A DNA stretch of 64,000 nucleotides from Solidesulfovibrio carbinolicus (GTDB taxonomy: Bacteria > Desulfobacterota > Desulfovibrionia > Desulfovibrionales > Desulfovibrionaceae): positions 1,116,001-1,180,000 of the forward strand of contig NZ_CP026538.1 in the NCBI RefSeq assembly GCF_004135975.1, written 5' to 3'. Position 1 is the first letter of the stretch. The number at the start of each line of letters is the position of its first letter. Under the pieces are notes generated by a model that worked only from the letters and a program-made list of their open reading frames with translations, did no database searches and was not told the origin of the DNA. The translations under genes and the position numbers were made by a program. Below are positions 49,557-64,000 of the stretch, one piece after another.

Positions 49557-51227
49557 ATGCGACTGTGCAAGCGACCACTGCTGTGTTGGGGGGGATTGGC
49601 CGTGGCGGCCGTTTTTTTGCTGGCCGCCGGACCGGGGCTGCTGGGCGCGGCCCAAAATGACAAAAGCGCCGACGCCGCGCCGGGCCGGCAGCTGGCCCGC
49701 AGCGCGGTGAGCGCCCCGGGGGCGCGCTGGACCACCTCGGACCATTCCAAGTACGAGGCGCTGCAAAAGGATTTCACCAAGCCCGAGGAGGTCACGGCCG
49801 CCTGCCTGTCCTGCCACCAGATGGCCGGCGACCAGATCCAGCACACCATCCACTGGACCTGGATCTGCCCGGACTGCGGCGACGGCAAGTCCATGGGCAA
49901 GTACGGCAAGACCATCAACAACTTCTGCATCGCCGTGCCGTCCAACGAGCCGCGTTGCACCTCCTGCCACATCGGCTACGGCTGGAAGGACAAGAAGTTC
50001 GATTTCGCCGACAAGAACCGCATCGACTGTCTGGTGTGCCACGACACCACCCACACCTACGAGAAGTTCCCGACCAAGGCCGGCTATCCCGTGACCGAGC
50101 CGACGCTGTTCCCCGAGGACGGCAAGACCTACCTGCCGCCCGACTACAAGAAGATCACGGCCAAGGTCGGACGGCCCGACCGGCTCAATTGCGGCGCCTG
50201 CCACTTCTACGGCGGCGGCGGCGACGGCGTGAAGCACGGCGACCTCGACAGCTCCATGGGAATGCCCAAGAAGTCCCTGGACGTGCACATGGACGCCGAG
50301 GGCCTCAACTTCAGCTGCCAGCGTTGCCACACCACCAAGGACCACCAGATCGCCGGGCGGCTCTACACCTCGCCGGCCGCGCCCGAGCGCATCAGCCTCA
50401 CCGAGGCCGATCTGGCCTCCAAGATCGCCTGCGAATCCTGCCACGGCCAAAAGCCCCACAAGAACGACGCCAAGGCCAATGATCACGTGGACAAGGTGGC
50501 CTGCCAGTCCTGCCACATCCCGGAATTCGCCCGGGTGCTGCCGACGAAGATGACCTGGGACTGGTCCACGGCCGGCCAGATGAACGCCGAAGGCAAGCCG
50601 TTTAAGAAGGAAGGCCCCTACGGCAAGCCGGTCTACGATTCCAAGAAGGGCAATTTCACCTGGGAAAAGAACGTGGAGCCGGTCTATTACTGGTTCAACG
50701 GGGCCATGAGCAACATGCTCGTCACGGACAAGGTCGATCCGACCAAGATCGTCAGCGTCAACCATCCGGCCGGTTCGCCGTCCGACGGCAAGTCGCGCAT
50801 CATGCCGTTTAAGCGCCACACCGGAAAGCAGCCCTTTGATCCGGTCAACGCCACCTTCGTCATTCCGCATCTGTTTGGCCCCAAGGACTCCGACGCCTAC
50901 TGGGCCAGCTATGACTGGAAGCGGGCCATCGCCTCGGGCATGAAGTACGTGGATTTGCCGTTCTCGGGCGACGTCGGGTTTGTCGAGACGGAATACTTCT
51001 TCCCCATCACCCACATGGTCGCGCCCAAGGAGCGGGTGGTGGCCTGCGGCGAATGCCATAGCGCCGAAGGACGCCTCAAGGGCCTGCCGGGCGTGTACGT
51101 GCCGGGCCGCGACGTCCACGCCGGCGTCACCATGGTCGGCTGGGGAGCGGTGGCGGCGGCTGTTCTGGCCGTTATCGCCCACGGCGTGGGCCGCATGGTT
51201 TCAAGCTCCAGGAGGAAGGGACAATGA
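49557..51227 (+). CDS. Octaheme c-type cytochrome of the tetrathionate-reductase (OTR) family
   Basis: The 556-residue protein has a signal segment (residues about 8-31) and eight CxxCH sites: about 83-87, 134-138, 158-162, 212-216, 254-258, 292-296, 316-320 and 497-501. A ninth near-motif, CPDCGDGKSMGKYGK (from 104), lacks the His. This matches octaheme tetrathionate reductase-like proteins, where one heme has a Lys ligand; DGKSMGK may supply it (inference). The C-terminal membrane helix (VGWGAVAAAVLAVIAHGVGR) anchors it, and the next gene encodes a cytochrome b, so it likely transfers electrons between quinones and a periplasmic sulfur or nitrogen compound. Substrate cannot be told from sequence. 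Confidence 0.88.
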   Translation: MRLCKRPLLCWGGLAVAAVFLLAAGPGLLGAAQNDKSADAAPGRQLARSAVSAPGARWTTSDHSKYEALQKDFTKPEEVTAACLSCHQMAGDQIQHTIHWTWICPDCGDGKSMGKYGKTINNFCIAVPSNEPRCTSCHIGYGWKDKKFDFADKNRIDCLVCHDTTHTYEKFPTKAGYPVTEPTLFPEDGKTYLPPDYKKITAKVGRPDRLNCGACHFYGGGGDGVKHGDLDSSMGMPKKSLDVHMDAEGLNFSCQRCHTTKDHQIAGRLYTSPAAPERISLTEADLASKIACESCHGQKPHKNDAKANDHVDKVACQSCHIPEFARVLPTKMTWDWSTAGQMNAEGKPFKKEGPYGKPVYDSKKGNFTWEKNVEPVYYWFNGAMSNMLVTDKVDPTKIVSVNHPAGSPSDGKSRIMPFKRHTGKQPFDPVNATFVIPHLFGPKDSDAYWASYDWKRAIASGMKYVDLPFSGDVGFVETEYFFPITHMVAPKERVVACGECHSAEGRLKGLPGVYVPGRDVHAGVTMVGWGAVAAAVLAVIAHGVGRMVSSSRRKGQ

Positions 51228-51868
51228 GCGCGCAAGGTAACGGCAAGTTCTATCTCTACACCCGCTACGAGCGGTTTTGGCACTGGCTGCAAGCGGCGCT
51301 CATCATCGCCCTGGCCGCCACGGGCTTCGAGGTCCACGGCAGTTTCACGCTTTTCGGCTACAAGCGGGCCGTGACCGTGCATTCGGCCCTGGGCATCACC
51401 TGGCTGGTCGCCTTTGCCTTCTTCGTCTTCTGGGTGGCCACCACGGGCGAGTGGAAGCAGTACGTGCCGACCACCAAGAAGATGTTCGAGGTCATGCGCT
51501 ACTACGGCTACGGCATCTTCCAGGGCCAGCCCCATCCCTGTCCCAAGACGCCCGACGCCAAGCATAACCCGCTTCAGCGCCTGACCTATCTGGCGCTGGC
51601 CGCGGCCTTGTTGCCCTTTATGATGCTCACGGGCCTGCTGTATTGGCTGTATAACGACTGGGCCGCCCTGGGCCTGGGGGGCCTTAGCCTGTCGGCCGTG
51701 GCCGTGGCCCATCTGCTGGGAGCGTTCGCCATTTTGGCCTTCCTGGTGGTGCATGTGTACATGACGACCACCGGGCATACGCCTTTTGCCCATATCAAGG
51801 CCATGTGCACGGGCTGGGAAGACGCCGAGGACGGCAAGCCCGAGGATTGGGAGAAGCGGATGGCGTAA
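51224..51868 (+). CDS. Cytochrome b (Ni/Fe-hydrogenase b-type/PF01292-like)
   Basis: The 214-residue protein has four membrane segments. Putative heme ligands are in YERFWHWLQAALIIA, KRAVTVHSALGITWLVAF and AVAHLLGAFAILAFLVVHVY. The pattern matches the dihaem b-type subunits of formate dehydrogenase, hydrogenase and thiosulfate reductase. It overlaps the octaheme cytochrome gene (ATGA) and would connect it to the quinone pool. The extra hydrophilic loop (EYKQYVPTTKK-like, residues 80-115) is cytoplasmic. Confidence 0.9.
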   Translation: MSAQGNGKFYLYTRYERFWHWLQAALIIALAATGFEVHGSFTLFGYKRAVTVHSALGITWLVAFAFFVFWVATTGEWKQYVPTTKKMFEVMRYYGYGIFQGQPHPCPKTPDAKHNPLQRLTYLALAAALLPFMMLTGLLYWLYNDWAALGLGGLSLSAVAVAHLLGAFAILAFLVVHVYMTTTGHTPFAHIKAMCTGWEDAEDGKPEDWEKRMA

Positions 51869-53500: not shown

Positions 53501-56500
53501 CTAGGGGCGCAGGGCCAGCCAGGTCTCCAGGGTGCTCACCAGGCGCGACTTGGGGATGGGCTTGACCTGGAAATCGTCGCAGCCGGCCTGGAAGCTGCGC
53601 TGACGGTGTTCCTCGAAGGCGTGGGCGGTCAGGGCCACCACCGGGGTACGCGGCCGGCCAAGTTCCTTTTCCTGTCGGCGCAGGGCTTCGGTGGTCTGGT
53701 AGCCGTCCATGCCGGGCATTTCGACGTCCATGAGGATGACGTCGAAGGGCGCGTCGGCCAGGGCGGCCAGGGCGGCTTGGCCGCTGGGGGCCCAGGTGAG
53801 GCGAAAGGGCGTGTCTTCGAGCATGAGGCGCATGACTTCGGCGTTGGTGGCGCTGTCCTCGACGAGGAGCACCGTGCCGCCGCCGGAGCGGTTCACCGGG
53901 ATGGCGGGCTGGAGGCTGGCGGGTCGCGGCAGGGGCGCGGGACGCAGGGGCAGGCTGAGGGTGAAGGTGGAGCCCCGGCCGGGAGCGCTGTCCACGCCGA
54001 TGCGGCCGCCCATGAGTTCCGCGAGTTTTTTGCAGATGGCCAGCCCCAGGCCCACGCCGCCGAACTGGCGGTTGGCCGAGGCGTTTATTTGGGTGAAGCG
54101 GTCGAAAATGACGGCCTGCTTGTCGGCGGGGATGCCGATGCCGGTGTCGCGCACGGCCAGGCGCAGGCGCGGGCCGTCCGTGAGGGAAGGGGTGCTGGCG
54201 ACTTCCAGGACGACGTGGCCCTGCTGGGTGAACTTGATGGCGTTGCCCAGGAGGTTGACGAGGATTTGCCGGATGCGGTCCGGGCAGCAGAACAGTCGCG
54301 GCGGCAGATCGCCCTGGATTTCCAGGCGCAACTCCAGGCCTTTGCGGGCGGCGTCGGGGCGCATCATCTCGGCGAGCTGGGTGGCCAGCTCGACGATGTC
54401 GCAGGATTTTTCCTCGATGACCAAGCCGCCGGCCTCAATCTGGGACAGGTCGAGGATATCGTTGAGCAGGCCGAGGAGATTGGCTCCGGCCAGTTCGATG
54501 GACTTGACGGCATGGGTCTGGTCGCTGGTCAGCGAGGTGCCCGCGAGCACGTCGACCATGCCGAGGATGGTGTTCATGGGCGTGCGGATTTCGTGGCTCA
54601 TGGTGGAGAGGAATTCGCTTTTGGCCCTGTTGGCGGATTCGGCGGCTTCCTTGGAGCGGCGCAGGGCCTGTTCCATGGCCTTGCGTTCGGTGATGTCCAC
54701 GAGCACGGACAGGATGCAGGGTTCGCCATAGGCGTGGTTGGCCACGGCGGAATAGAGCACGGTGACGGTGGAGCCGTTTTTGTAGCGCAGTTCGAGTTCC
54801 TTGCCGAAGATGGAGCCGGCCCGGGCCATTTCGGCCAGCAGCGCCTCGCGGTCCTCGGTGCGTCGCCACAGGCCGACTTCGTAGGTGGTGCGGCCGATGA
54901 CGTCGGATTTGACGTGGCCGAACATGCGGGCCCAAGTTTCATTGACGTCAATGATGCGGCCGTCGCGCCGGGTGGTGATGGAGATGCCCACGGGGGTGAA
55001 GCGGAAGATCTTGGCGAGCTGGTCCTGGCTTTCGCGCAGGGCCTCCTCGTCGCGCTTGCGGCGGGTGACGTCGGTGTGGGTGCCGGCCATGCGGATGACC
55101 ACGCCGCGTTCGTCCTTGAGGCTGGCTCCCCGGCCGAGAATCCAGCGGTAGGCGCCGTCCTTGTGGCGCATGCGGTATTCCACGGCGAAATTGTCCACCT
55201 CGCCGTCGGCGCAGCGTTTGTTGGCGCGAATGACGTTTTCGGCGTCGTCGGGATGGATGCGCTTGGTCCATTCGTCGAGGAGATTTTGCACTTCATCGGG
55301 GTTGTAGCCGAGAATTTCGAGGTAGCGTGGAGAATAGTAGACGATGTTGGTGCGCAGATCCCAGTCCCATATGCCGTCGTTGGCCCCTTTGGCGACCAGG
55401 GTGTAGCGGGCTTCGCTGGCGCGCAGGGCTTCCTCGATGCGCTTGCGCTCGGTGATGTCGTTGCCGATGCACAGGATTTCGCTCACCCCTCCCGTGGCGG
55501 CGCGCAGGCCGCGCAACGACCAGGCGATCCAGGCGATTTCGCCGTTTTTGCGTCTGTGCTGGCGGGTCAGGGAGGCGGCGCTTTCCGGGGATTGGGCCAG
55601 GGCGGCCAGGGTGTGCGTCCAGGCGTCGGCGCCGTCGTCGGCCCCGGGGGCGTCGGCCACGTCGATAAGGGCGCCGATTTCCCGACCGATCATTTCCTCC
55701 AGGGAAAACCCGAAGAACTCCAGACCGAAGGCGTTGCAGAAGGCCACCCGGCCCTGGTGATCCAGGCGCAGGATGACGCTGGCGGCGCTCTGAACGAGTT
55801 CGCGGTGGCGTTCCTCGCTTTGGCCCACGGCCATCAACAGCTGATCCAGGCGCGAGGACTGGCGGCGCACCGTGCGCCGCAGCACGGCGTTAATGGCCAC
55901 GAGCACGGCCACGGCCGCCGCCACCACGGCCAGGGCCCACAGGGCGTAGCGCATGGTGGAGGAGGGAAACAGCGCCGAGCCGCGCCATTTACGATCAATT
56001 TCCTCGTATTGCTCCGGCGTGATGCGGGCAAAACCGTCTTCCACGAGCTGGAGCAGGGCTTCGTTGCCCTTGCGCACGGCCCGGTGGAACTCGCCCTGGT
56101 TGAGGGTAAAAGCCAGTCGGAAGTCGTTTTCCAGGCCGTACTTGTAGAGGTAGTACAGGGCCGGGGGCTTATCGACGCAAAAGACCTTGACCCGGGCGTC
56201 GCGGGCGGCCTGGACCACGCCTTCGTAGCCGTCGAAGGCGGCCAGGGGCAGGATGCCCCGGCTGGACAGGTAGTCCACGCTGGAGTCGCCGCGTTTGACG
56301 CCCACGGTAAATCCCCGCAACGTGTCGAGGTCCTTGATGCCGCTTAAGTCCTTGTGGACGAAGATCGGCACTTCGATGGTGGCGTAGGGCTTGGAGAAAC
56401 TGTAGATTTTTTCGCGTTCGGGATTGCGGAACAAGGTGTCGATGACATCGGCGCGGCCTTGCAGCATTTCATTCTGGGCGGCGTTCCAGCCCAAGGGGCG

Positions 56501-56776
56501 CAGATTGACGGGCACGCCCGTCACCTTTTCCCAAAGCTTCCAGTAATCAATGAGGATACCCGTGGTTTCTCCCTCGGGCGTGGTGATGGTGTAGGGCGGA
56601 TAATCCTGATCCAGGACGACGGTGATGGCTTTGGCCGAGGCCTGAGCGTCGGTCTTGGCGGCCTTGGACTCCCTGCCGGCAGACGGCAGCAGCAAGGCGC
56701 ACAGCAATACGAGGAGCGTCGGCAGACCGAAGCGGAGCTTGGCCGTGTCGCGCCCGGAGGGCAGAGAAGTTGTCAC
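53501..56776 (-). CDS. BvgS-like hybrid sensor kinase (SBP-PAS3-HisKA-HATPase-REC)
   Basis: Numbered from GTG 56776, the 1091-residue protein has a signal segment (14-33), a periplasmic solute-binding domain (about 48-265, VLDQDYPPYTITTPEGETTG), a membrane helix (277-298), three PAS domains (about 320-445, 455-575, 580-695), HisKA with His 728 (STMSHEIRTPMN), HATPase_c (about 830-945; NLLGNAIKFT, DTGIGIPAD, GGVGLGLAI) and a C-terminal receiver with Asp 1017 (DVILMDVEMPGMDG). It senses a periplasmic ligand in BvgS/EvgS fashion. The frame continues upstream without an ATG except one antisense-like at 57115 that overlaps the PNPOx gene, so GTG 56776 is the best start. The ribosome-binding site is poor. 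Confidence 0.88.
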   Translation of the reverse strand: MTTSLPSGRDTAKLRFGLPTLLVLLCALLLPSAGRESKAAKTDAQASAKAITVVLDQDYPPYTITTPEGETTGILIDYWKLWEKVTGVPVNLRPLGWNAAQNEMLQGRADVIDTLFRNPEREKIYSFSKPYATIEVPIFVHKDLSGIKDLDTLRGFTVGVKRGDSSVDYLSSRGILPLAAFDGYEGVVQAARDARVKVFCVDKPPALYYLYKYGLENDFRLAFTLNQGEFHRAVRKGNEALLQLVEDGFARITPEQYEEIDRKWRGSALFPSSTMRYALWALAVVAAAVAVLVAINAVLRRTVRRQSSRLDQLLMAVGQSEERHRELVQSAASVILRLDHQGRVAFCNAFGLEFFGFSLEEMIGREIGALIDVADAPGADDGADAWTHTLAALAQSPESAASLTRQHRRKNGEIAWIAWSLRGLRAATGGVSEILCIGNDITERKRIEEALRASEARYTLVAKGANDGIWDWDLRTNIVYYSPRYLEILGYNPDEVQNLLDEWTKRIHPDDAENVIRANKRCADGEVDNFAVEYRMRHKDGAYRWILGRGASLKDERGVVIRMAGTHTDVTRRKRDEEALRESQDQLAKIFRFTPVGISITTRRDGRIIDVNETWARMFGHVKSDVIGRTTYEVGLWRRTEDREALLAEMARAGSIFGKELELRYKNGSTVTVLYSAVANHAYGEPCILSVLVDITERKAMEQALRRSKEAAESANRAKSEFLSTMSHEIRTPMNTILGMVDVLAGTSLTSDQTHAVKSIELAGANLLGLLNDILDLSQIEAGGLVIEEKSCDIVELATQLAEMMRPDAARKGLELRLEIQGDLPPRLFCCPDRIRQILVNLLGNAIKFTQQGHVVLEVASTPSLTDGPRLRLAVRDTGIGIPADKQAVIFDRFTQINASANRQFGGVGLGLAICKKLAELMGGRIGVDSAPGRGSTFTLSLPLRPAPLPRPASLQPAIPVNRSGGGTVLLVEDSATNAEVMRLMLEDTPFRLTWAPSGQAALAALADAPFDVILMDVEMPGMDGYQTTEALRRQEKELGRPRTPVVALTAHAFEEHRQRSFQAGCDDFQVKPIPKSRLVSTLETWLALRP

Positions 56777-57053: not shown

Positions 57054-57563
57054 TCAGTTGCCCGCTTCCCGCTCCAGCGGCCCCAGGGGTCGGCCTTCTT
57101 CCAGGCGCAGGACAAAACGCGTGCCGAAGCCTTTCCGGTTGTCGGTCAGGCGCACGGACTGGGGGATGAACGCATGGGGCCGCACCCGGGCCATTTTGGC
57201 GGCGCTCTCCCCGGGCGCTTCCAGCAGGGCCTTGGCAAAAGGGAATTTGGCGCAGTAGACGGCCGCGGCCCGGCCCATGGCTATGAGGCCTTTGACGGGT
57301 TCGACCCGGCCTTCCAGTTGCAGGCCGTGGATGTCGCGCCAGGAGGCGACCACCGGGTGGATGGTCGCGGCGCAGGCCGGGTTGGCCTCCAGGTTGCGGC
57401 AATGGCGGCTGGCCGGCGACGAGAAAAAGACGAGCTTCCAGCCGTCGGGGGCGAAATAGACGTCGCTGGCCCAGGGGCGGCTCTCCGCGCAGGTGGCCAG
57501 GGTCATGGCCGCCACTTCGGCGAACAGCGTCCGAACGGCGGCCTCGAAGGCTTCCGGGGTCAC
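57054..57563 (-). CDS. Pyridoxamine-5'-phosphate oxidase-like flavin-binding protein
   Basis: The 169-residue protein has the split-barrel pattern: MTLATCAESRPWASDVYFAP, GWKLVFFSSPASRHCRNLEA, PACAATIHPVVASWRDIHGL and QLEGRVEPVKG, typical of FMN- or F420-binding PNPOx-like proteins. GTG 57563 overlaps the stop of ubiX (GTGA), so it is translated with it. It may use or reduce flavin in the decarboxylase pathway (inference). The C-terminal part (AFIPQSVRLTDNRKGFGTRF) fits the family. Confidence 0.85.
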   Translation of the reverse strand: MTPEAFEAAVRTLFAEVAAMTLATCAESRPWASDVYFAPDGWKLVFFSSPASRHCRNLEANPACAATIHPVVASWRDIHGLQLEGRVEPVKGLIAMGRAAAVYCAKFPFAKALLEAPGESAAKMARVRPHAFIPQSVRLTDNRKGFGTRFVLRLEEGRPLGPLEREAGN

Positions 57564-58123
57564 TGCCCGCCCCAGCGCCGGAAGAGGTCGTGGGGTACGG
57601 CGAACTGATCGAGAATCTTGCCCACGGTCTGGTCCACCACGTCCATGATGGTTTGCGGGCCGTGGTAAAACGACGGCATGGGCGGCAAAATGACGGCCCC
57701 CATCTCGGCCAGGGCAACCATGTGGCGCAGATGCCCCAGGTGCAGCGGCGTCTCGCGGGGCACGATGACAAGCTTGCGGCGTTCCTTCAGCGTCACGTCG
57801 GCGGCCCGCGTCAGCAGGTTGTCATTGAGGGACAAGGCGATCTGGGCCAGGCTTTTCATGGAGCACGGGGCCACGACCATGCCGTGGGCGGCAAACGAGC
57901 CGCTGGACACGGCGGCGGCCAGATCGGCCGGATCGTGGTTGACGTCGGCCAGGCCGGCCAGGTCAGCCGGGGTCTTGTCCGTTTCCAGGCCCAGGGTGAC
58001 GGCCGCGCCGGATGAGAGGATGAGATGGGTCTCCACCTCCGCGACGCCGCCCAGGACTTCGAGCAGGCGGACGCCGTAAATAACCCCGCTGGCCCCGGAA
58101 ATGCCGATGATGATGCGTTTCAT
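57560..58123 (-). CDS. ubiX: UbiX-like flavin prenyltransferase, copy 1
   Basis: UbiX joins dimethylallyl phosphate to FMN, making prenyl-FMN for UbiD decarboxylases. The 187-residue protein has IIIGISGASGVIYGVRLLEV, PCSMKSLAQIALSLNDNLLT, ERRKLVIVPRETPLHLGHLR and MGAVILPPMPSFYHGPQTIM, all family signatures. ATG 58123 follows a weak purine run. Its last 104 residues match the second copy at 58811 with only about four changes, whereas the first 80 differ at about one position in three. It is coupled to the PNPOx gene downstream. Confidence 0.93.
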   Translation of the reverse strand: MKRIIIGISGASGVIYGVRLLEVLGGVAEVETHLILSSGAAVTLGLETDKTPADLAGLADVNHDPADLAAAVSSGSFAAHGMVVAPCSMKSLAQIALSLNDNLLTRAADVTLKERRKLVIVPRETPLHLGHLRHMVALAEMGAVILPPMPSFYHGPQTIMDVVDQTVGKILDQFAVPHDLFRRWGGQ

Positions 58124-58210
58124 GGTTATTTCTTTACGGGGCGCGGGCCGGATGCACAAGGCTTGGGCTCTGGCGCGGGATACACCGCGAGGCTTTACTG
58201 TCATGGCGGC

Positions 58211-58252
58211 GGGCCGCTCTCCCGCCGTGACAGGCGGCCAGGAGAGCGGCCC
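58211..58252. terminator. Large intercistronic hairpin before ubiX copy 1
   Basis: GGGCCGCTCTCC (58211-58222) pairs with GGAGAGCGGCCC (58241-58252), and the inner CCGCC and GGCGG pair further. It lies between the small frameshifted gene and ubiX copy 1. No T-run follows on the minus strand, so it may be an attenuator or a processing and stability element. Confidence 0.5.
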
Positions 58253-58294
58253 GGCTTGACGTTGCGGCCACGTTTGCGCCCGGCCGGGCAGGAG

Positions 58295-58529
58295 CTATTT
58301 CCCGTCCTTGCCCTTTTCGTAGACGAAACAGGCGTTGGCAAAGGTTGTAGGGATAGTCCGGCCGGCGGTCGGCCACCCGGCCGAGTTTGGGGCGCAGGTT
58401 GCCGAAGGCCCGGTAAATGAGCGGATAGGGCTGGCCGTGGAAGTGTTTGAGGATGTCGCGCCACATGCGCGGCGCTTGCCGGATGTAGTCGGCCATGGCC
58501 TGGGTGAGGGCCTCCTCGGTCAGTCGCAT
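58295..58529 (-). pseudogene. Small UbiD-cluster gene, apparently frameshifted
   Basis: From ATG 58529 the frame reads MRLTEEALTQAMADYIRQAP and continues as a helical, basic domain through NLRPKLGRVADRRPDYPY. After this it runs into an unlikely Arg/Ala-rich tail to 58134. In the next frame the sequence continues as TFANACFVYEKGKDGK and a TAG at 58295, which looks like the natural C-terminus. Deleting one A within TACAACC (58343-58349, minus strand) joins the two, giving a 77-residue protein. Either this is a true frameshift, a sequencing error, or programmed shifting. The start overlaps the preceding gene (ATGCGACTGA). Family unknown. Confidence 0.6.
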
Positions 58530-58741
58530 TTCATGGCGTGGGCGTACTGCTCGCGGGTGCAGTAGGCCCCGGCCAGGAACTGGAACTCGCAATCCTTGAC
58601 CTTTTCCACCAGCACGGCCTTGTCCGGGTGGACTTCCATGACGGCGGGCAGCTCGTCCACCCGCTTTTCCTCGGCAATGCGCACAAGCTGGCCGATGGAC
58701 TCCAGTTCGGCGACAAAAGACGCAAGATCCTGCTGGGGCAT
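58520..58741 (-). CDS. Stand-alone UbiD N-terminal-like domain (73 aa)
   Basis: The whole protein (MPQQDLASFVAELESIGQLV, RIAEEKRVDELPAVMEVHPD, KAVLVEKVKDCEFQFLAGAY, then CTREQYAHAM) follows the first 70 residues of UbiD enzymes: D-L-x-x-F-x-x-x-L-E-x-x-G-x-L-x-R-I, the V-E-K-V-K core and the T-R-E end. It then stops, where UbiD enzymes continue for several hundred residues and supply the catalytic Arg and Glu. It may be a regulatory or assembly subunit, or a remnant. It is coupled to the next small gene by a ten-base overlap. Confidence 0.7.
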   Translation of the reverse strand: MPQQDLASFVAELESIGQLVRIAEEKRVDELPAVMEVHPDKAVLVEKVKDCEFQFLAGAYCTREQYAHAMKCD

Positions 58742-58810
58742 GACAACCTCGGGTGCCGCGCCGCGCCGCCGAGACGAAGCGGAACGGGAAAAGGTGGCGA
58801 CGTCGGGGCC

Positions 58811-59380
58811 TCAGTGATTGCCGCCGGACCAGCGGCGAAACAGATCGTGGGGGATGGCGAACTGATCGAGAATCTTGCCCACGGTCTGGTCCACCACGTC
58901 CATGATGGTTTGCGGGCCGTGGTAGAAGGACGGCATGGGCGGCAAAAGGACCGCCCCCATCTCGGCCAGGGCGGCCATGTGGCGCAGATGCCCCAGATGC
59001 AGCGGCGTTTCGCGGGGCACGAGGACGAGCTTACGGCGTTCCTTGAGCGTCACGTCGGCGGCGCGCGTGAGCAGGTTGTCGTTTAAGGACAGGGCGATCT
59101 GGGCCAGGCTTTTCATGGAGCAGGGGGCCACGACCATGCCGTCGGCCCCAAAGGAGCCGCTGGAAATGGCGGCGGCCAGATTGTCGTGGGCGTGGCTGAC
59201 GCCGGCCAGGGCGGCCACGGACTCGGGGGTGTGCTTGGTTTCCAGGGCCAGGGTCACGGCCGCGCCCTTGCTGAGGATGAGATGGGTTTCGACGTCCGGG
59301 CTGTGGCGCAGGACTTCCAGGAGCCGGATGCCGTAAACGACGCCGCTGGCTCCGGAAATGCCGACAATGAGGCGTTTCAT
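58811..59380 (-). CDS. ubiX: UbiX-like flavin prenyltransferase, copy 2
   Basis: The 189-residue protein has LIVGISGASGVVYGIRLLEV, PCSMKSLAQIALSLNDNLLT, ERRKLVLVPRETPLHLGHLR and MPSFYHGPQTIMDVVDQTVG. It is a paralogue of the protein encoded at 57560, almost identical from about residue 82 onward. ATG 59380 follows AAAGGGA. Located directly behind the two ubiD genes, it is the natural prenyl-FMN supplier. Confidence 0.93.
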   Translation of the reverse strand: MKRLIVGISGASGVVYGIRLLEVLRHSPDVETHLILSKGAAVTLALETKHTPESVAALAGVSHAHDNLAAAISSGSFGADGMVVAPCSMKSLAQIALSLNDNLLTRAADVTLKERRKLVLVPRETPLHLGHLRHMAALAEMGAVLLPPMPSFYHGPQTIMDVVDQTVGKILDQFAIPHDLFRRWSGGNH

Positions 59381-59546
59381 GGTTGATCCCTTTTTCGCGT
59401 GCTTCGGTTGTCGACCGGCGGTCCGGCCGGACGCGAGGGCTGTCGCGTCATCATGCTGGTCGCTTCCGGCCCGGGAGAGCTTCTGACCGGAAGCGACCGG
59501 CTTCGGCGGGAGTGTCCGGCTGACTGCCGCGACGCTCCCCCAAGCG

Positions 59547-61310
59547 TTATTCGTCGGTGTTGAACTTGTCGCGCAGCGGGAAGCCTTCGGGATATTCCAC
59601 CTGGCCGGTCTCTTCGTTGTAGCGCACCACGCCCTTGCGCGGCACGCCGGCGGTGGGGCCGCCCACGGCGTCGGTATCGACCAGCACGGCGGTGCGGATG
59701 CCGTTTAAGAGCCAATCGCCGGCCACGGCCCGGTCAGCGCACTTGGTCCATTCCTCGCACCAGTCGCCCAGGCTGTAGCCGTACCACTTCCAGCGCGGGG
59801 CGATTTTGGGCAGCCCGGCCTTTTCCCACAGCTCCCGGGCCTCTTCCATGATGTCCTTGGTCGGCAGGGCCACCGGCGGCATGGGATAGTGCATGGTGGC
59901 GTCGATCATGATCTTGGCCTCCCATTCCCGGTCGCGCAGCTTGGGGGCGTGGCCGTTGGCCTGGTAGTCCTCGATTTTCACCGACTTCATGAGGTCGGTG
60001 CGGTAGGCGATGGCCCACAGCACTTCCTCGACGTTGTTGGGGTTGATGTCCTCGTCCACGGCCACGGTGATCTTGCCGACAGACCGCATGAAGGCGCTGG
60101 CGCCGGTAAGCGCCCGCCAGACTTCGGTGCGCGGGGTGTTTTTTTCGAGCACGATGACCGTCAGACGTGAGACGCCGATCATGGGGCCGTGCAGGGCCAC
60201 GTCCTTGACCTGGCGCACGTACAGCGTGTTTTTGAGGTGGTTGAGCATCACCGCGCTGTAGTTGAGCTGCTTGATGACGCCGGATTCCGATGGGGCCATC
60301 TGGGAGATCATGGAGGTGATGGTGGCTTTCTTGCGCCGGGTGATGGCCGTGACCTCGACGGAGTGGTTGTATTCCTCCACGCTCATGTTGCCGTAGGATT
60401 CGCCGAAGGGCGCTTCCATTTCGAGCTTGGTCGGGTCGATCCAGCCTTCAATGATGATCTGGGCGTCGGCCGGGGCCATGAGCGGCACGGTCTTGCAGGC
60501 CACCTTGCGGTAGGGCACGCCGGCCAGGCCGCCGGCCACGTCGAGGTCGTTGAGATGCTCGGGGGTCTTCTGGGGTCCGATGACCTGCAGCATGGGCGGC
60601 GCGCCGACAATGAGCGCCACAGGCATCTTCTCGCCGCGCTCCTTGTATTTCACCCAGTTGTTGTGGGCTCCGCCGTTGGTCTGGATGAGCCACATGGCGG
60701 TCATGCGGTCGGAGGCCTTGAGGCTGCACCGGTTCTGGCTGATGTTTTCCACCCCCGTGTCCAGGTCCTTGGTGATCCACAGCCCGGCCGAGAAATACGG
60801 GGCCGTGTCCCAGCCCGGGGTGTTGTTGGGCACGGGCAGGCCGGCCAGGCCCTTGCCTTGGCCGCCTTTGAGGGCGTCGCCGGTGAGCACCACTTCATGG
60901 ACCGGGGCTTCCTCGGAGGGAATCTCCACGGCCGCAACCGGCTTTTCAAAGGCCTGGACCCATTTGGCGAAGATCTTCTGGGACAGGGCGGTGAGGTCGT
61001 CGCCGGCGTCGTCGATGCCCAGCGACGCCGCGTAGATGGCCGGGGAACCGGCCGTGCCGCCCACCATCACGTCGCAGTCGCCCTGATACGAGCGGCCCTT
61101 GCTGTCGGTGACGTTGGTAAACAGGAAGGCGCGCTTGGGGTTGTTGGCCACCACCGTGCCCACGTCGCCGACATAGCCCCAGCGCACGAAGGGGTGCAGG
61201 TGGCGGTCCTTGTTGATGGGATCATTTATGGTCCACAGCAGGCCGGCCTTGTCGAGCTTTTCGAGATGGGCGTTTAAGTCGTCGTACTGGCGCGGGAAAC
61301 CCTTCTGCAT
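59547..61310 (-). CDS. ubiD: UbiD-family decarboxylase, copy B
   Basis: UbiD enzymes (de)carboxylate aromatic and alpha,beta-unsaturated acids using prenyl-FMN. The 587-residue protein has the N-terminal segment YDDLNAHLEKLDKAGLLWTI, the prenyl-FMN-binding Arg region GVENISQNRCSLKASDRMTA, and the catalytic Glu pair in EMEAPFGESYGNMSVEEYNH. VTAITRRKKATITSMISQMA and VDEDINPNNVEEVLWAIAYR are further signatures. ATG 61310 has GGAG ahead; a longer frame to 61364 has none. It lies between ubiD copy A and ubiX copy 2. Confidence 0.93.
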   Translation of the reverse strand: MQKGFPRQYDDLNAHLEKLDKAGLLWTINDPINKDRHLHPFVRWGYVGDVGTVVANNPKRAFLFTNVTDSKGRSYQGDCDVMVGGTAGSPAIYAASLGIDDAGDDLTALSQKIFAKWVQAFEKPVAAVEIPSEEAPVHEVVLTGDALKGGQGKGLAGLPVPNNTPGWDTAPYFSAGLWITKDLDTGVENISQNRCSLKASDRMTAMWLIQTNGGAHNNWVKYKERGEKMPVALIVGAPPMLQVIGPQKTPEHLNDLDVAGGLAGVPYRKVACKTVPLMAPADAQIIIEGWIDPTKLEMEAPFGESYGNMSVEEYNHSVEVTAITRRKKATITSMISQMAPSESGVIKQLNYSAVMLNHLKNTLYVRQVKDVALHGPMIGVSRLTVIVLEKNTPRTEVWRALTGASAFMRSVGKITVAVDEDINPNNVEEVLWAIAYRTDLMKSVKIEDYQANGHAPKLRDREWEAKIMIDATMHYPMPPVALPTKDIMEEARELWEKAGLPKIAPRWKWYGYSLGDWCEEWTKCADRAVAGDWLLNGIRTAVLVDTDAVGGPTAGVPRKGVVRYNEETGQVEYPEGFPLRDKFNTDE

Positions 61311-61425
61311 GGATCGCTCCGTGATCGCCCCGGCAAACGGAACCGGGGGTTGAAATTTTCGCACGAACTGGTTGGTTTCAATAACAAACGGCCGCTGCCC
61401 GCAGCGGGCTGCGTCCGGGAAACGG

Positions 61426-63060
61426 TTACTTTTCGGCCCAGACGATGCCCCGGGCCGGGTCCTGGGGTTCGGCCGTGGCGCTGCGGTTGGCGGCCGAGCG
61501 GCGGCCGTTGGCCAGCCAGTCGCCGTTGGCGGCGCGCTTGGCGCAGGCGTCCCACTCGGCGCACCAGTCGCCCAGGCTGTAGCCGCTCCAGGGCGTCTCC
61601 GGGGCCAGTTCCGGGAGTTGCAGCTCCTCCCAGATGGTCCTGGCCCGCTCCATGAATTCGGCCTTGGGCAGGGCCACCGGCGGGAACACGCCCTTGGCCG
61701 TGGCGTCGATGAGCATGGTGGAATCGACCTGATGGCCGGGCAGCTCCGGGCCGTGGCCCTTGCCGCGATGGGGGATGATGACGACGTCGGCCACGGGATT
61801 GGAGCGGTAGGCCATGGCCCACAGCACCTGATCGGTGTTGGCCGGGTCGATGTCCTCGTCGATGGCCACGCAGAACTTGCCGATGGCCGGGGTGAAGGAG
61901 GCCGCGCCGTTCAGCGCCCGCCAGACCTCGGTGTTGGGGGTGCCGTTGGCGATGGTGATAAACAGAAACCGCCGCAGGTTGGTCAGCGGCTCGTGCATAG
62001 TCACCCGGGCGACGCCCTTGATATTCAAGGTGTCGCGCAGGTGGTTCAGGTAGAGCGGCTCGTAGGCGACCTTTTTGATCACGCTCGATTCGCAGGGGGT
62101 CACCTGGGAGATGATGGAGGCCACGGTGTATTTCCTGCGTCGGGTGATGGCCGTCACCGTCATGGAGAAGTTGTATTCCTCCAGGGCCATGTAGCCGTGG
62201 GATTCGCCAAAGGGGCCTTCGGGCTCCAGGGCGTCGGTGTCGATCAGGCCTTCGATGATGACCTGGGCGGCCGCCGGTACGAGAAGATCGACGGTCTTGC
62301 CGCGCACGACCTCGATGGGACAGCCGGCCAGCCCCCCGGCCACGGTGAGCTCGTCGCAGTCCAGGGGCAGCTTCTGCGGCCCGGTGTAGGCGACGACCGG
62401 CGGCGCGCCGATGACCACGGCCACGGGCATCTTTTCGCCCTTGGCCTTGTATTTGCGCCAGTGGACGCCGCCGCCGGCCAGGGTCGAACGCTCCATCATG
62501 ACGACCAGCCGGTTGGAGGCCTTGAGGTTGCCCCGGTACAGGCCCAGGTTCTGGATGCCCGATTCCGGGTCGCGGGTGGCCCACAGGGCGGCGGTGAGGT
62601 AGGGGGCGGTGTCGTAGCCCGGGGTGGAAATGGGGATGGGCAGGGCGTCCAGGCCCTTGCCTTCGCCCAGGAGCTCGTCGCCGGTGATGACCACTTCCTG
62701 GCAGGGCGCGTCAGTGACTTCCTTGGGCGCGATGGGGGCGGCTATGGCGTCCAGCCAGGCCTGGCCGATGTCCTCGGGTTTGCGGCCAAGGCCCAGGGCG
62801 TAGACCTCGGGCGTGGCGGCGAAAACGCCGATGGCCACCCGGGCGTCGGGATAGTGGCGGCCCTTGGCGTCGGTGGGGTTGGTGAAGAGAAAGGCCTTGC
62901 GCCGGTGTTCGGGGATGCCGCCCCGGTACTGCCAGCGCACCAGCGGGTGCATTTCCCGGTCCTTGTCGATGGGGCGGTCGATGGTGTGGAGCAGGCCGGC
63001 GGCGGCCAGTTTGTCGAGTTGGGCATCGAGATCGTCGTAACCGGCGGGTTGTTGCGTCAT
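61426..63060 (-). CDS. ubiD: UbiD-family decarboxylase, copy A
   Basis: The 544-residue protein has YDDLDAQLDKLAAAGLLHTI, GIQNLGLYRGNLKASNRLVV (Arg site), EPEGPFGESHGYMALEEYNF (Glu pair), VTAITRRRKYTVASIISQVT and AIDEDIDPANTDQVLWAMAY. It is clearly related to copy B throughout, as in two-subunit phenylphosphate or hydroxybenzoate carboxylases; the two may form a hetero-oligomer or serve different substrates. ATG 63060 has GGAG ahead. It is the first gene after the TetR-operator promoter. Confidence 0.93.
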   Translation of the reverse strand: MTQQPAGYDDLDAQLDKLAAAGLLHTIDRPIDKDREMHPLVRWQYRGGIPEHRRKAFLFTNPTDAKGRHYPDARVAIGVFAATPEVYALGLGRKPEDIGQAWLDAIAAPIAPKEVTDAPCQEVVITGDELLGEGKGLDALPIPISTPGYDTAPYLTAALWATRDPESGIQNLGLYRGNLKASNRLVVMMERSTLAGGGVHWRKYKAKGEKMPVAVVIGAPPVVAYTGPQKLPLDCDELTVAGGLAGCPIEVVRGKTVDLLVPAAAQVIIEGLIDTDALEPEGPFGESHGYMALEEYNFSMTVTAITRRRKYTVASIISQVTPCESSVIKKVAYEPLYLNHLRDTLNIKGVARVTMHEPLTNLRRFLFITIANGTPNTEVWRALNGAASFTPAIGKFCVAIDEDIDPANTDQVLWAMAYRSNPVADVVIIPHRGKGHGPELPGHQVDSTMLIDATAKGVFPPVALPKAEFMERARTIWEELQLPELAPETPWSGYSLGDWCAEWDACAKRAANGDWLANGRRSAANRSATAEPQDPARGIVWAEK

Positions 63061-63475
63061 GGGCGGCACTCCAAAAGGCTTGCGGCGCGGGCTGGGGTTG
63101 TCCCTGTCCAAAGACGGGCGCGGGAGTATGGAATGTATTAACACTAACCGGTTGGTTAGCGTCAAGAGAAGAGATGGTGACGATGGGAAAGGCGTGGAAG
63201 CGCGCCTGCGGGGAGGCGGCGGAAAACGGTCTCGGTTCCTGTCGGGATGGCCCGTAGCCGGGCGCGAGGCGTGTGAAGGGCGGCGCTGTTGGCCGCAAGG
63301 GGGCGGTTATGCTGCGGCACGGGCGTGGGCCGCGGGAAGAGCGAGCCGCAAGGCGGACGGGCTGGCGTCGTCAGTCGGCCTTGCGGGCGGGGCCGGGCCA
63401 ACGGTTGCGGCGGACCGGCGCGTCATGGCGCTGGGTGGCGTGGTGCGCCCAGGGGCGCGGGGAAGGTGTTGCGTG
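63061..63475 (-). other. Regulatory gap between tetR and ubiD copy A
   Basis: The 415 bases contain the promoter and operator described separately, and no convincing gene on either strand. Bases 63166-63475 are GC-rich and show no terminator hairpin after the TetR gene. Confidence 0.55.
63137..63165 (-). promoter_or_regulatory. UbiD-cluster promoter with TetR operator in the spacer
   Basis: On the minus strand TTGACG (63165-63160) and GTTAAT (63142-63137) are 17 bases apart. The spacer holds CTAACC-N4-GGTTAG (63144-63159), a perfect inverted repeat in TetR style. Repression by the TetR protein encoded just upstream is inferred. The untranslated leader to ATG 63060 is about 70 bases. Confidence 0.7.
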
Positions 63476-64000
63476 TTAGCGGGAAGGAGCGGCCTGCAGG
63501 GCCGCAATCACCACGCTGTCCAAAAACGCCGCGATGTCGAGGACGCTTGGCATGGGGGGCGGCTGGTCTTTGTCCAGGGTCTCGGCCAGGCGGGTGCGAA
63601 AGGGCGCGTTTATGGTGCTGACCAGCAGGCTGCCGGCCATGAGCATCTGCAGCACGGCCGTGTCCACGGGCAGCAAGCGTCCGGCGGCCACGCCCTGGCG
63701 GACGAAGCGGGCGGTGACGTTGTGGATGCGGGCGTAGATGGCCAACAGCTCTGGGGATGAGCGCCGGGAGCCGCCGGCCAGCTCGTGGGCGATGGTGCGC
63801 GGGGCGTTGGAATTGTGGGAAAAACCCTCGGCGTGGATGCGGATGACCCCGCGCAGCCCCTCGATTGGGTCGTCGCAGTCGGCCAGTTCGCGCTCCAGGC
63901 GATCGGCGAAATAGGCGAAATGGCGGGTGAGCACCACGTCGTAGAGCTTTTCCTTGTCGCCGATGTGGTAATAGATGGTGGCCTTGTTGACCCCGGCGGC
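63476..64000 (-). CDS. TetR-family regulator, 5' end missing
   Basis: The frame runs from the right edge to the TGA-type stop at 63476. The visible part begins inside the helix-turn-helix (AAGVNKATIYYHIGDKEKLY, with the typical ATIYYHxxDKExL recognition helix) and continues into a ligand-binding domain (residues ILREL-type helices, HAEGFSHNSNAPRTIAHELA, LLVSTINAPFRTRLAETLDK). TetR regulators repress neighbouring genes until a ligand binds. It is divergent in neither direction: it lies upstream of the ubiD cluster on the same strand, with the operator downstream of its own end. The 5' portion, about 25-40 residues, lies outside the window. Confidence 0.9.
   Translation of the reverse strand, partial: AAGVNKATIYYHIGDKEKLYDVVLTRHFAYFADRLERELADCDDPIEGLRGVIRIHAEGFSHNSNAPRTIAHELAGGSRRSSPELLAIYARIHNVTARFVRQGVAAGRLLPVDTAVLQMLMAGSLLVSTINAPFRTRLAETLDKDQPPPMPSVLDIAAFLDSVVIAALQAAPSR

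Follow-up and report, generated by a model that had tools for sequence, protein, structure and literature searches.

A conserved cluster of paired ubiD genes, ubiX and a PNPOx-like flavoprotein gene in Solidesulfovibrio, with the remnant of a third ubiD

The window analyzed here is a stretch of 64,000 nucleotides (contig C1:1116001-1180000) of a 4.69 Mb genome in 6 contigs, belonging to a Solidesulfovibrio near S. magneticus. Its last part carries a gene cluster (Table 1; locus L030) composed of a TetR-family regulator gene, two ubiD paralogues (ubiD-A and ubiD-B) for putative (de)carboxylases dependent on prenylated flavin mononucleotide (prFMN), two ubiX genes for flavin prenyltransferases, the remnant of a third ubiD (ubiD-C) and a gene for a PNPOx-like split-barrel flavoprotein. 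UbiD-A is 95-96% identical to its counterparts in S. magneticus metagenome-assembled genomes (MAGs), the nearest named records, and the cluster has a G+C content of 66.4% compared with 67.3% in the remaining window. An earlier interpretation from the DNA letters (the sequence-only reading) had listed TetR, ubiD-A, ubiD-B, two ubiX and a PNPOx-type gene in one direction; every reading frame it named is present, all of these genes lie on the minus strand, and the family models agree, with Pfam and NCBIfam recognizing two UbiDs, two UbiXs and PNPOx_N. When the eight window proteins were mapped onto fetched loci by tblastn and whole genomes were searched as well, there emerged a conserved core of TetR, ubiD-A, ubiD-B, ubiX and the PNPOx-like flavoprotein, to which TetR belongs in Desulfobacterota only.

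Table 1. Features of the cluster in window coordinates, and intact ubiD-C genes in related loci.
Feature	Position	Strand	Details
TetR-family regulator, 3' part	63476..64000	-	whole gene L030:9476-10153, 225 aa, 153 bases beyond window end
Predicted TetR operator TAACCAACCGGTTAGTG	63142..63158	-	81 bp before ubiD-A
ubiD-A, putative UbiD-family prFMN (de)carboxylase	61426..63060	-	544 aa; Pfam UbiD
Second operator-like site AAACCAACCAGTTCGTG	61362..61378	-	51 bp before ubiD-B
ubiD-B, UbiD-family paralogue of A	59547..61310	-	587 aa; Pfam UbiD
ubiX-2, flavin prenyltransferase	58811..59380	-	189 aa; NCBIfam NF004685
ubiD-C remnant (third UbiD)	58295..58741	-	first 73 codons, junction ~58522 with stop, C-terminal end
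ubiX-1, flavin prenyltransferase	57560..58123	-	187 aa; NCBIfam NF004685
PNPOx-like split-barrel flavoprotein	57054..57563	-	169 aa, GTG start; Pfam PNPOx_N
Intact ubiD-C in relatives	L032:13045-14649; L004:7900-9504; L033; L034; L008; L010; L007; L012; L015		

UbiD-A and UbiD-B, ~49% identical to each other, match the Pfam UbiD model with 167 and 143.2 bits, respectively (cut-off 23.3); UbiD_C is above its cut-off in both proteins and UbiD_N in UbiD-A. None of A, B and C reaches the cut-off of a curated UbiD equivalog in NCBIfam, and A and B fall below those of TIGR03701 (menaquinone, SCO4490-type) and PRK10922 (ubiquinone UbiD), which bears out the unusual composition claimed by the sequence-only reading. 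The Glu-Arg-Glu residues key to UbiD catalysis (PMC8379154) are kept in 15/15 A, 16/16 B and 12/12 C-type sequences, the last set including one relative outside the clusters. The notion of UbiD-B as a dead subunit was dropped because it keeps these residues.

The two paralogues travel together. Both are whole in 15 genomes, distributed over Solidesulfovibrio, Chromatiaceae, Reyranella and its kin, and Methylocapsa, and in each of these ubiD-A adjoins ubiD-B, the Methylocapsa locus having a ubiD-C remnant in between. The first collection scan recovered the pair in 12 of 14 loci, the other two (L016 and L017) holding remote UbiDs. UbiD-B occurs in 6/14 genomes of the genus and in 6/76 genomes of the order around Reyranella, each time together with A. 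Five of 395 genomes sampled across the phylum matched at E <= 1e-60. They are the window genome; G115, where one contig has TetR-B-A (A cut at the contig end) and two further contigs have the end of A, ubiX and PNPOx; and G048, G211 and G318, which carry two or three UbiDs each, 38-44% identical. Of the seven UbiDs in the last three genomes, the five that were included in a tree proved to be of the A-like and not of the B type. Such A-like UbiDs, known to us from these genomes and from rhizobial plasmids, are the closest outside A/B among those compared (47-54% identical to A and 39-43% to B) and differ in having no recognized B partner; on one rhizobial plasmid the neighbors include xanthine-dehydrogenase-family proteins and tricarboxylate transporters. 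A plasmid-borne module was sought and not found, the 11 plasmid records that match UbiD-B all being below 60% identity. The window UbiD-B is 81-83% identical to those of hosts outside Desulfobacterota, which suggests a horizontal spread under strong constraint. As a separate observation, a nitroreductase-family gene stands directly before ubiD-A in loci of the Reyranella type, at L012:9193-9870 (Pfam), with equivalents in L009 and L015 judged by similar sequence.

A maximum-likelihood tree of 53 UbiD rows resolves A and B as sister clades (support 99/92), with the B clade on a long stem (0.84); the outer rows include long branches, flagged by the program in a warning. Outside A+B, a rhizobial plasmid UbiD comes next, followed by those of G048, G211 and G318; A, B and these A-like UbiDs split from UbiD-C and ordinary UbiD at 100/100. 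The rows leave out U_Rik, the A fragment of G115, G211:C128 and G048:C96 (38%), L016 and L017, as well as the well-studied UbiD enzymes, to which the relation of A and B was judged through curated models alone. Measured against L032, the locus of the nearest relative (genus genome G005), the ratio of nonsynonymous to synonymous substitution rates (dN/dS) is 0.18 for ubiD-A, 0.04 for ubiD-B, 0.04 for ubiX-2, 0.13 for ubiX-1 and 0.19 for the PNPOx gene; therefore the five intact genes are under purifying selection.

The two small frames between the ubiX genes had been interpreted as a UbiD N-terminal fragment and a second small gene, and thereby as extra small subunits. Comparison with relatives revealed instead that the 73-codon UbiD_N frame (58741..58520) and the other small frame (58529..58134) are the two ends of one gene, ubiD-C. 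By tblastn they correspond to codons 1-73 and ~460 to the end of ubiD-C in L032, which has 534 codons; intact copies in relatives have 533-538. DNA alignment with L032 shows that the window gene has suffered an internal deletion of 1,159 bp, not a multiple of three. The junction contains a stop codon, and 3' of it the two genes differ in length by a further single base, after which the second frame is off the ancestral frame. An assembly error, conceivable where a single assembly is at hand, is made less likely by this second lesion. The supposed small subunits are debris of a full-length UbiD-C, as the L032 alignment and the genus search agree. Of the several overlaps that had been noted, the one between ubiX-1 and the PNPOx gene stands (4 nt), and that of the small frames is a by-product of the deletion.

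When the genus was searched with intact ubiD-C, 5/14 genomes proved to have a whole copy, and these are all the other A/B-bearing ones; the window genome yielded only its two ends, apart from distant hits on UbiD-A, on UbiD-B and on a third UbiD at another place. Across the 15 genomes with a whole A-B pair, ubiD-C is intact within the cluster in nine, two of which (Lamprocystis and Enhydrobacter) hold tandem duplicates at L007:3067-6338 and L010:7048-10407. In the others it is intact on a separate contig (G006), present as two pieces at contig ends (Thiodictyon), frame-shifted close to its end (Reyranella MAG L011), internally deleted (the window genome), reduced to a remnant that contains stops and has undergone a separate internal loss (Methylocapsa L013), or missing from the cluster although the genome has a 53% relative at another site (Reyranella GW715 L009). 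Because its state varies so much among these genomes, ubiD-C is best regarded as accessory and as having decayed repeatedly. Separate small genes of the window kind are found in none of the 14 other A/B-bearing genomes, where ubiD-C is whole, contig-cut, decayed or absent. The sequence-only reading had itself named such an absence from related clusters, combined with a grouping of the two UbiDs with well-studied enzymes, as telling against a new multi-subunit system. The absence is seen here; as to the grouping, judged through curated models, A and B reach no equivalog cut-off.

It might be argued that the two frames nonetheless form a functional new pair, for example with a UbiD_N-only assembly factor. 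The 73-codon frame is 98.6% identical in protein to the start of L032 ubiD-C, from which it differs by 6 synonymous and 1 non-synonymous changes; it still matches Pfam UbiD_N and, weakly, two NCBIfam UbiD models. However, a recent deletion explains this retention, the C-terminal end is out of frame, and the gene has decayed independently in Methylocapsa, so that we give a functional pair hardly any credence. The second frame matches no Pfam or NCBIfam model, and the 7 differences per part from L032 are too few for a rate test.

The same lesions bear on the idea of the sequence-only reading that several subunits, true small ones among them, make up a carboxylase of the phenylphosphate carboxylase or VdcCD type, which the layout of two UbiDs plus small frames resembles. 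The cluster shares with VdcBCD and BsdBCD the operon layout of UbiX and UbiD; it differs in missing the VdcC cut-off of 650 (A 148.1, B 125) and in offering no VdcD-type Cys4 zinc small subunit, since the small frames are UbiD-C ends and no CXXC motif was found in the 73-codon frame. With the phenylphosphate/phenylphosphoamidate carboxylases of Thauera and Desulfatiglans anilini the cluster has in common two UbiD paralogues of comparable identity and a UbiX nearby, and the D. anilini enzyme, which needs both of its ~52% identical paralogues (PMC7500099), provides a precedent for A+B. A and B nevertheless score 83.5/84.8 and 67.5/60.8 bits against the alpha and beta models TIGR02723 (cut-off 564.6) and TIGR02724 (cut-off 468.95), respectively. 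Neither cut-off is reached by UbiD-C of L032, which just reaches the general subfamily model (244.9 versus 244.85), unlike A and B. A relative of the synthase-like protein of L105, described below, was not found in the window genome, and the host lacks TIGR03200 above cut-off. Several UbiD-like subunits also occur in the naphthalene carboxylase cluster of N47, which has four (PMC12016498); that cluster, compared here by its description, is similar in its multiple UbiD paralogues and its origin in a sulfate-reducing culture, and differs in host and lifestyle. With the small genes accounted for as ends of a broken UbiD-C, which refutes the proposal for them, and with the TIGR02723, TIGR02724 and VdcC cut-offs missed by wide margins, such a carboxylase is extremely improbable.

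Both UbiX proteins exceed the cut-offs of NF004685 (271.8 bits for ubiX-2 and 269.1 for ubiX-1; cut-off 188) and of TIGR00421. In a tree the two group together within Solidesulfovibrio (94/94, just below the tool's star). The pair is present in the window genome, the L032 genome and UBA7700 at 82-84% protein identity (82% in the window), and a single ubiX lies in the clusters of G013 and S. aerotolerans. The paired UbiX that had seemed an unusual layout is real in that there are two copies, but the tree indicates a local duplication, and one confined, among the loci compared, to the S. magneticus group. It is ubiX-1 that overlaps the PNPOx gene.

The PNPOx-like protein matches Pfam PNPOx_N with 51.6 bits. 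No solved chain was matched by its sequence at E <= 0.001; its AlphaFold2 model has a mean predicted local distance difference test (pLDDT) score of 90.9, and the best 50 of 417 Foldseek matches, 11-25% identical to it, are all split barrels that bind flavin or heme, among them PNPOx, PhzG and HugZ. The coupling to ubiX is tight, the two genes overlapping by 1-20 nt in 16/16 pairs (start codons chosen by us). The protein is not exclusive to the module, with matches in 21/395 phylum genomes, the window genome included. Among the surroundings of ten homologues, UbiX is adjacent in four and ~1.3 kb off in one. The four loci with adjacent UbiX (L102, L103, L105 and L107; Desulfobacterota, one family f56) share an operon of ubiX, PNPOx, two phosphoenolpyruvate (PEP)-synthase relatives, UbiD and a CoA-ligase-like protein, headed by a gene that we take from its sequence to be a LysR regulator. 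Families in these operons were scanned in L105 only, where the UbiD exceeds the phenylphosphate carboxylase beta cut-off (488.1 versus 468.95). The occurrence of the ubiX-PNPOx pair in phenylphosphate-carboxylase-type operons hints at a role in prFMN handling. That prFMN can be matured by a small protein of the split-barrel type has a precedent in PhdC of the phenazine-1-carboxylate decarboxylase system PhdABC, which, like the window cluster, combines a UbiD, a UbiX and a small flavin-binding split-barrel protein in one operon; PhdC is described as an HpaC-like maturase with a C-terminal ExW motif and is reported to have needed oxygen or ferricyanide in vitro (PMC13040415). The marks of a PhdC-type maturase would be an HpaC-like fold with a conserved Glu and the ExW motif, and oxidation of the prFMN radical to the iminium. 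Set beside the description of PhdC, the window protein is likewise a split barrel, PNPOx/HugZ-like by those 50 matches, and ExW is found in 0/12 aligned relatives.

The regulator matches Pfam TetR_N with 51.6 bits on the whole gene (cut-off 24). In 6/6 Solidesulfovibrio loci and in G115 the cluster is preceded, at a distance of at most ~2.3 kb, by the gene of a related TetR; none was found outside the Desulfobacterota loci. The palindrome CACTAAC-N6-GTTAGTG or a near form precedes ubiD-A in all six Solidesulfovibrio loci (L033 by eye only) and ubiD-B in four (the window, L004, L032 and L034); before ubiD-B no site with <= 2 mismatches was found in L033 and L035, nor was the palindrome found in six scanned loci of other groups (L007, L008, L009, L010, L013 and L073). 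Before the window ubiD-A, a TTGACG and a GTTAAT are separated by a 17-nt spacer that holds most of the palindrome and is overlapped by the predicted operator TAACCAACCGGTTAGTG. The pattern TAACCAACCRGTTMGTG with <= 2 mismatches occurs at two window sites, before ubiD-A and ubiD-B, against 0.02 expected in shuffles, a figure that measures rarity and is no independent test, the pattern being derived from the same sites; the conservation among the Solidesulfovibrio loci carries more weight. TetR is predicted to bind this palindrome, and the inducible, TetR-linked UbiD/UbiX system anticipated by the sequence-only reading is consistent with its position before both ubiD genes. The regulator itself is a mosaic among close relatives: between the window and L032 its first 80 residues are 84% identical and the remainder 38%, compared with 94% and 91% between the window and UBA7700. 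The two sensor types (window, UBA7700 and S. aerotolerans versus L032, MBC34 and G013) are discordant with the UbiD tree, and the operator is nearly constant despite the differing sensor parts. Close relatives perhaps respond to different inducers.

As to direction, one could suppose that the cluster encodes a carboxylase feeding aromatic growth, seeing that the ubiX-PNPOx pair heads phenylphosphate-carboxylase-type operons in other Desulfobacterota. The benzoyl-CoA-pathway marker TIGR03200, however, is above cut-off in 0/5 Solidesulfovibrio genomes as against 4/4 other Desulfobacterota tested. The single query of our phenylphosphate-synthase test (E <= 1e-20), the PEP-synthase-like protein L105:7460-9292 of 610 aa, likewise finds a relative in 0/6 Solidesulfovibrio genomes as against the same 4/4 others. 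The failure to find either marker in Solidesulfovibrio favors a decarboxylation that serves a peripheral or detoxifying purpose; a carboxylation that feeds aromatic growth we consider quite unlikely. The substrates may be aromatic acids. Neighbors in other hosts, namely protocatechuate 3,4-dioxygenase subunits in L011 (above cut-off), a 4-oxalomesaconate-tautomerase/PrpF-like protein in L007 (below both cut-offs) and a dehydrogenase and a lactonase-like protein in L008 (both below cut-offs), point to differing chemistries, and we therefore name no substrate.

Taken together, it is proposed, with a probability of roughly 0.7, that the cluster encodes an inducible prFMN-dependent (de)carboxylase module in which UbiD-A and UbiD-B are controlled by TetR and served by UbiX and the PNPOx-like protein. 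TetR would bind the palindrome and repress the promoters before ubiD-A and ubiD-B until released by a small molecule. UbiX would make reduced prFMN, and the PNPOx-like flavoprotein, probably co-translated with ubiX, would supply reduced flavin or help to mature prFMN. With this cofactor UbiD-A and UbiD-B, possibly joined in a single heteromeric enzyme, would act on an acid of aromatic, heteroaromatic or unsaturated type, in all likelihood by decarboxylating it. UbiD-C would be an accessory enzyme, lost in the window strain by the internal deletion.

An alternative to joint action of A and B is that they are independent decarboxylases with different substrates, which form no heteromer and share a cofactor supply and a regulator. 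Each of ubiD-A and ubiD-B has an operator-like site of its own and both proteins carry the full Glu-Arg-Glu set, and the A-like UbiDs of G048, G211, G318 and the rhizobial plasmids indicate that the A type can work without a recognized B. On the other hand, B was never seen without A, and it is far more constrained than A in dN/dS, as suggests a partnership. We hold independent enzymes to be a real possibility, if not the favored one.

Several further points weigh against the proposed module. The evidence for an A+B complex and for its substrate is at gene level, and A and B could be separate enzymes; a fold model of UbiD-B was discarded as too poor (mean pLDDT 47.6). At the position we take to be that of the metal-ligand Glu233 of Fdc1, B and C do not conserve the Glu and A is variable, so the binding of metal and prFMN may differ among the three; loss of this ligand as a hallmark of B was dropped, the position varying in A and C too. 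The role assigned to the PNPOx-like protein, be it flavin supply or prFMN maturation, is argued from linkage, and UbiX was not found in 5/10 surroundings of its homologues. A strict promoter scan returned no promoter at the ubiD-A operator, because GTTAAT lacks the A that the scan requires; terminator-like sites are no more frequent than chance, and one extra palindrome-like match falls within the ubiD-A coding sequence of L032. Two marker proteins make a thin test of aromatic metabolism, and three flanking Solidesulfovibrio genes beyond TetR (for a histidine kinase, a P-type ATPase and FdhD) give no pathway hint.

Outside the cluster, a hybrid histidine kinase with an SBP_bac_3 sensor and several PAS domains (53501-56776) follows on the same strand, and L032 has a long frame with a similar start at the equivalent position. 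Farther on, positions 49557-51868 encode a 556-aa protein with many CxxCH heme motifs and a cytochrome-b-like membrane protein, a pair that we presume might be of the octaheme tetrathionate-reductase type.

In the literature searched, as far as its text was available, we found no description of this two-UbiD gene set. Our analysis removes a false claim of small subunits and puts in its place a defined, testable paired-UbiD module found in distant bacteria. We know of no settled answer as to how reduced prFMN reaches its active form in strict anaerobes, and the PNPOx-like protein, whose gene is linked to ubiX in a number of sulfate-reducing bacteria, offers a specific candidate for prFMN handling. 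In a bolder and rather doubtful version of the proposal, the prFMN decarboxylase would be a heteromer for which A and B are both obligatory and, at the same time, the PNPOx protein coupled to ubiX would mature prFMN, as a member of a family new to that task. If true, this would place another kind of two-UbiD enzyme alongside the phenylphosphate carboxylases and would show how the active cofactor may be made in strict anaerobes.

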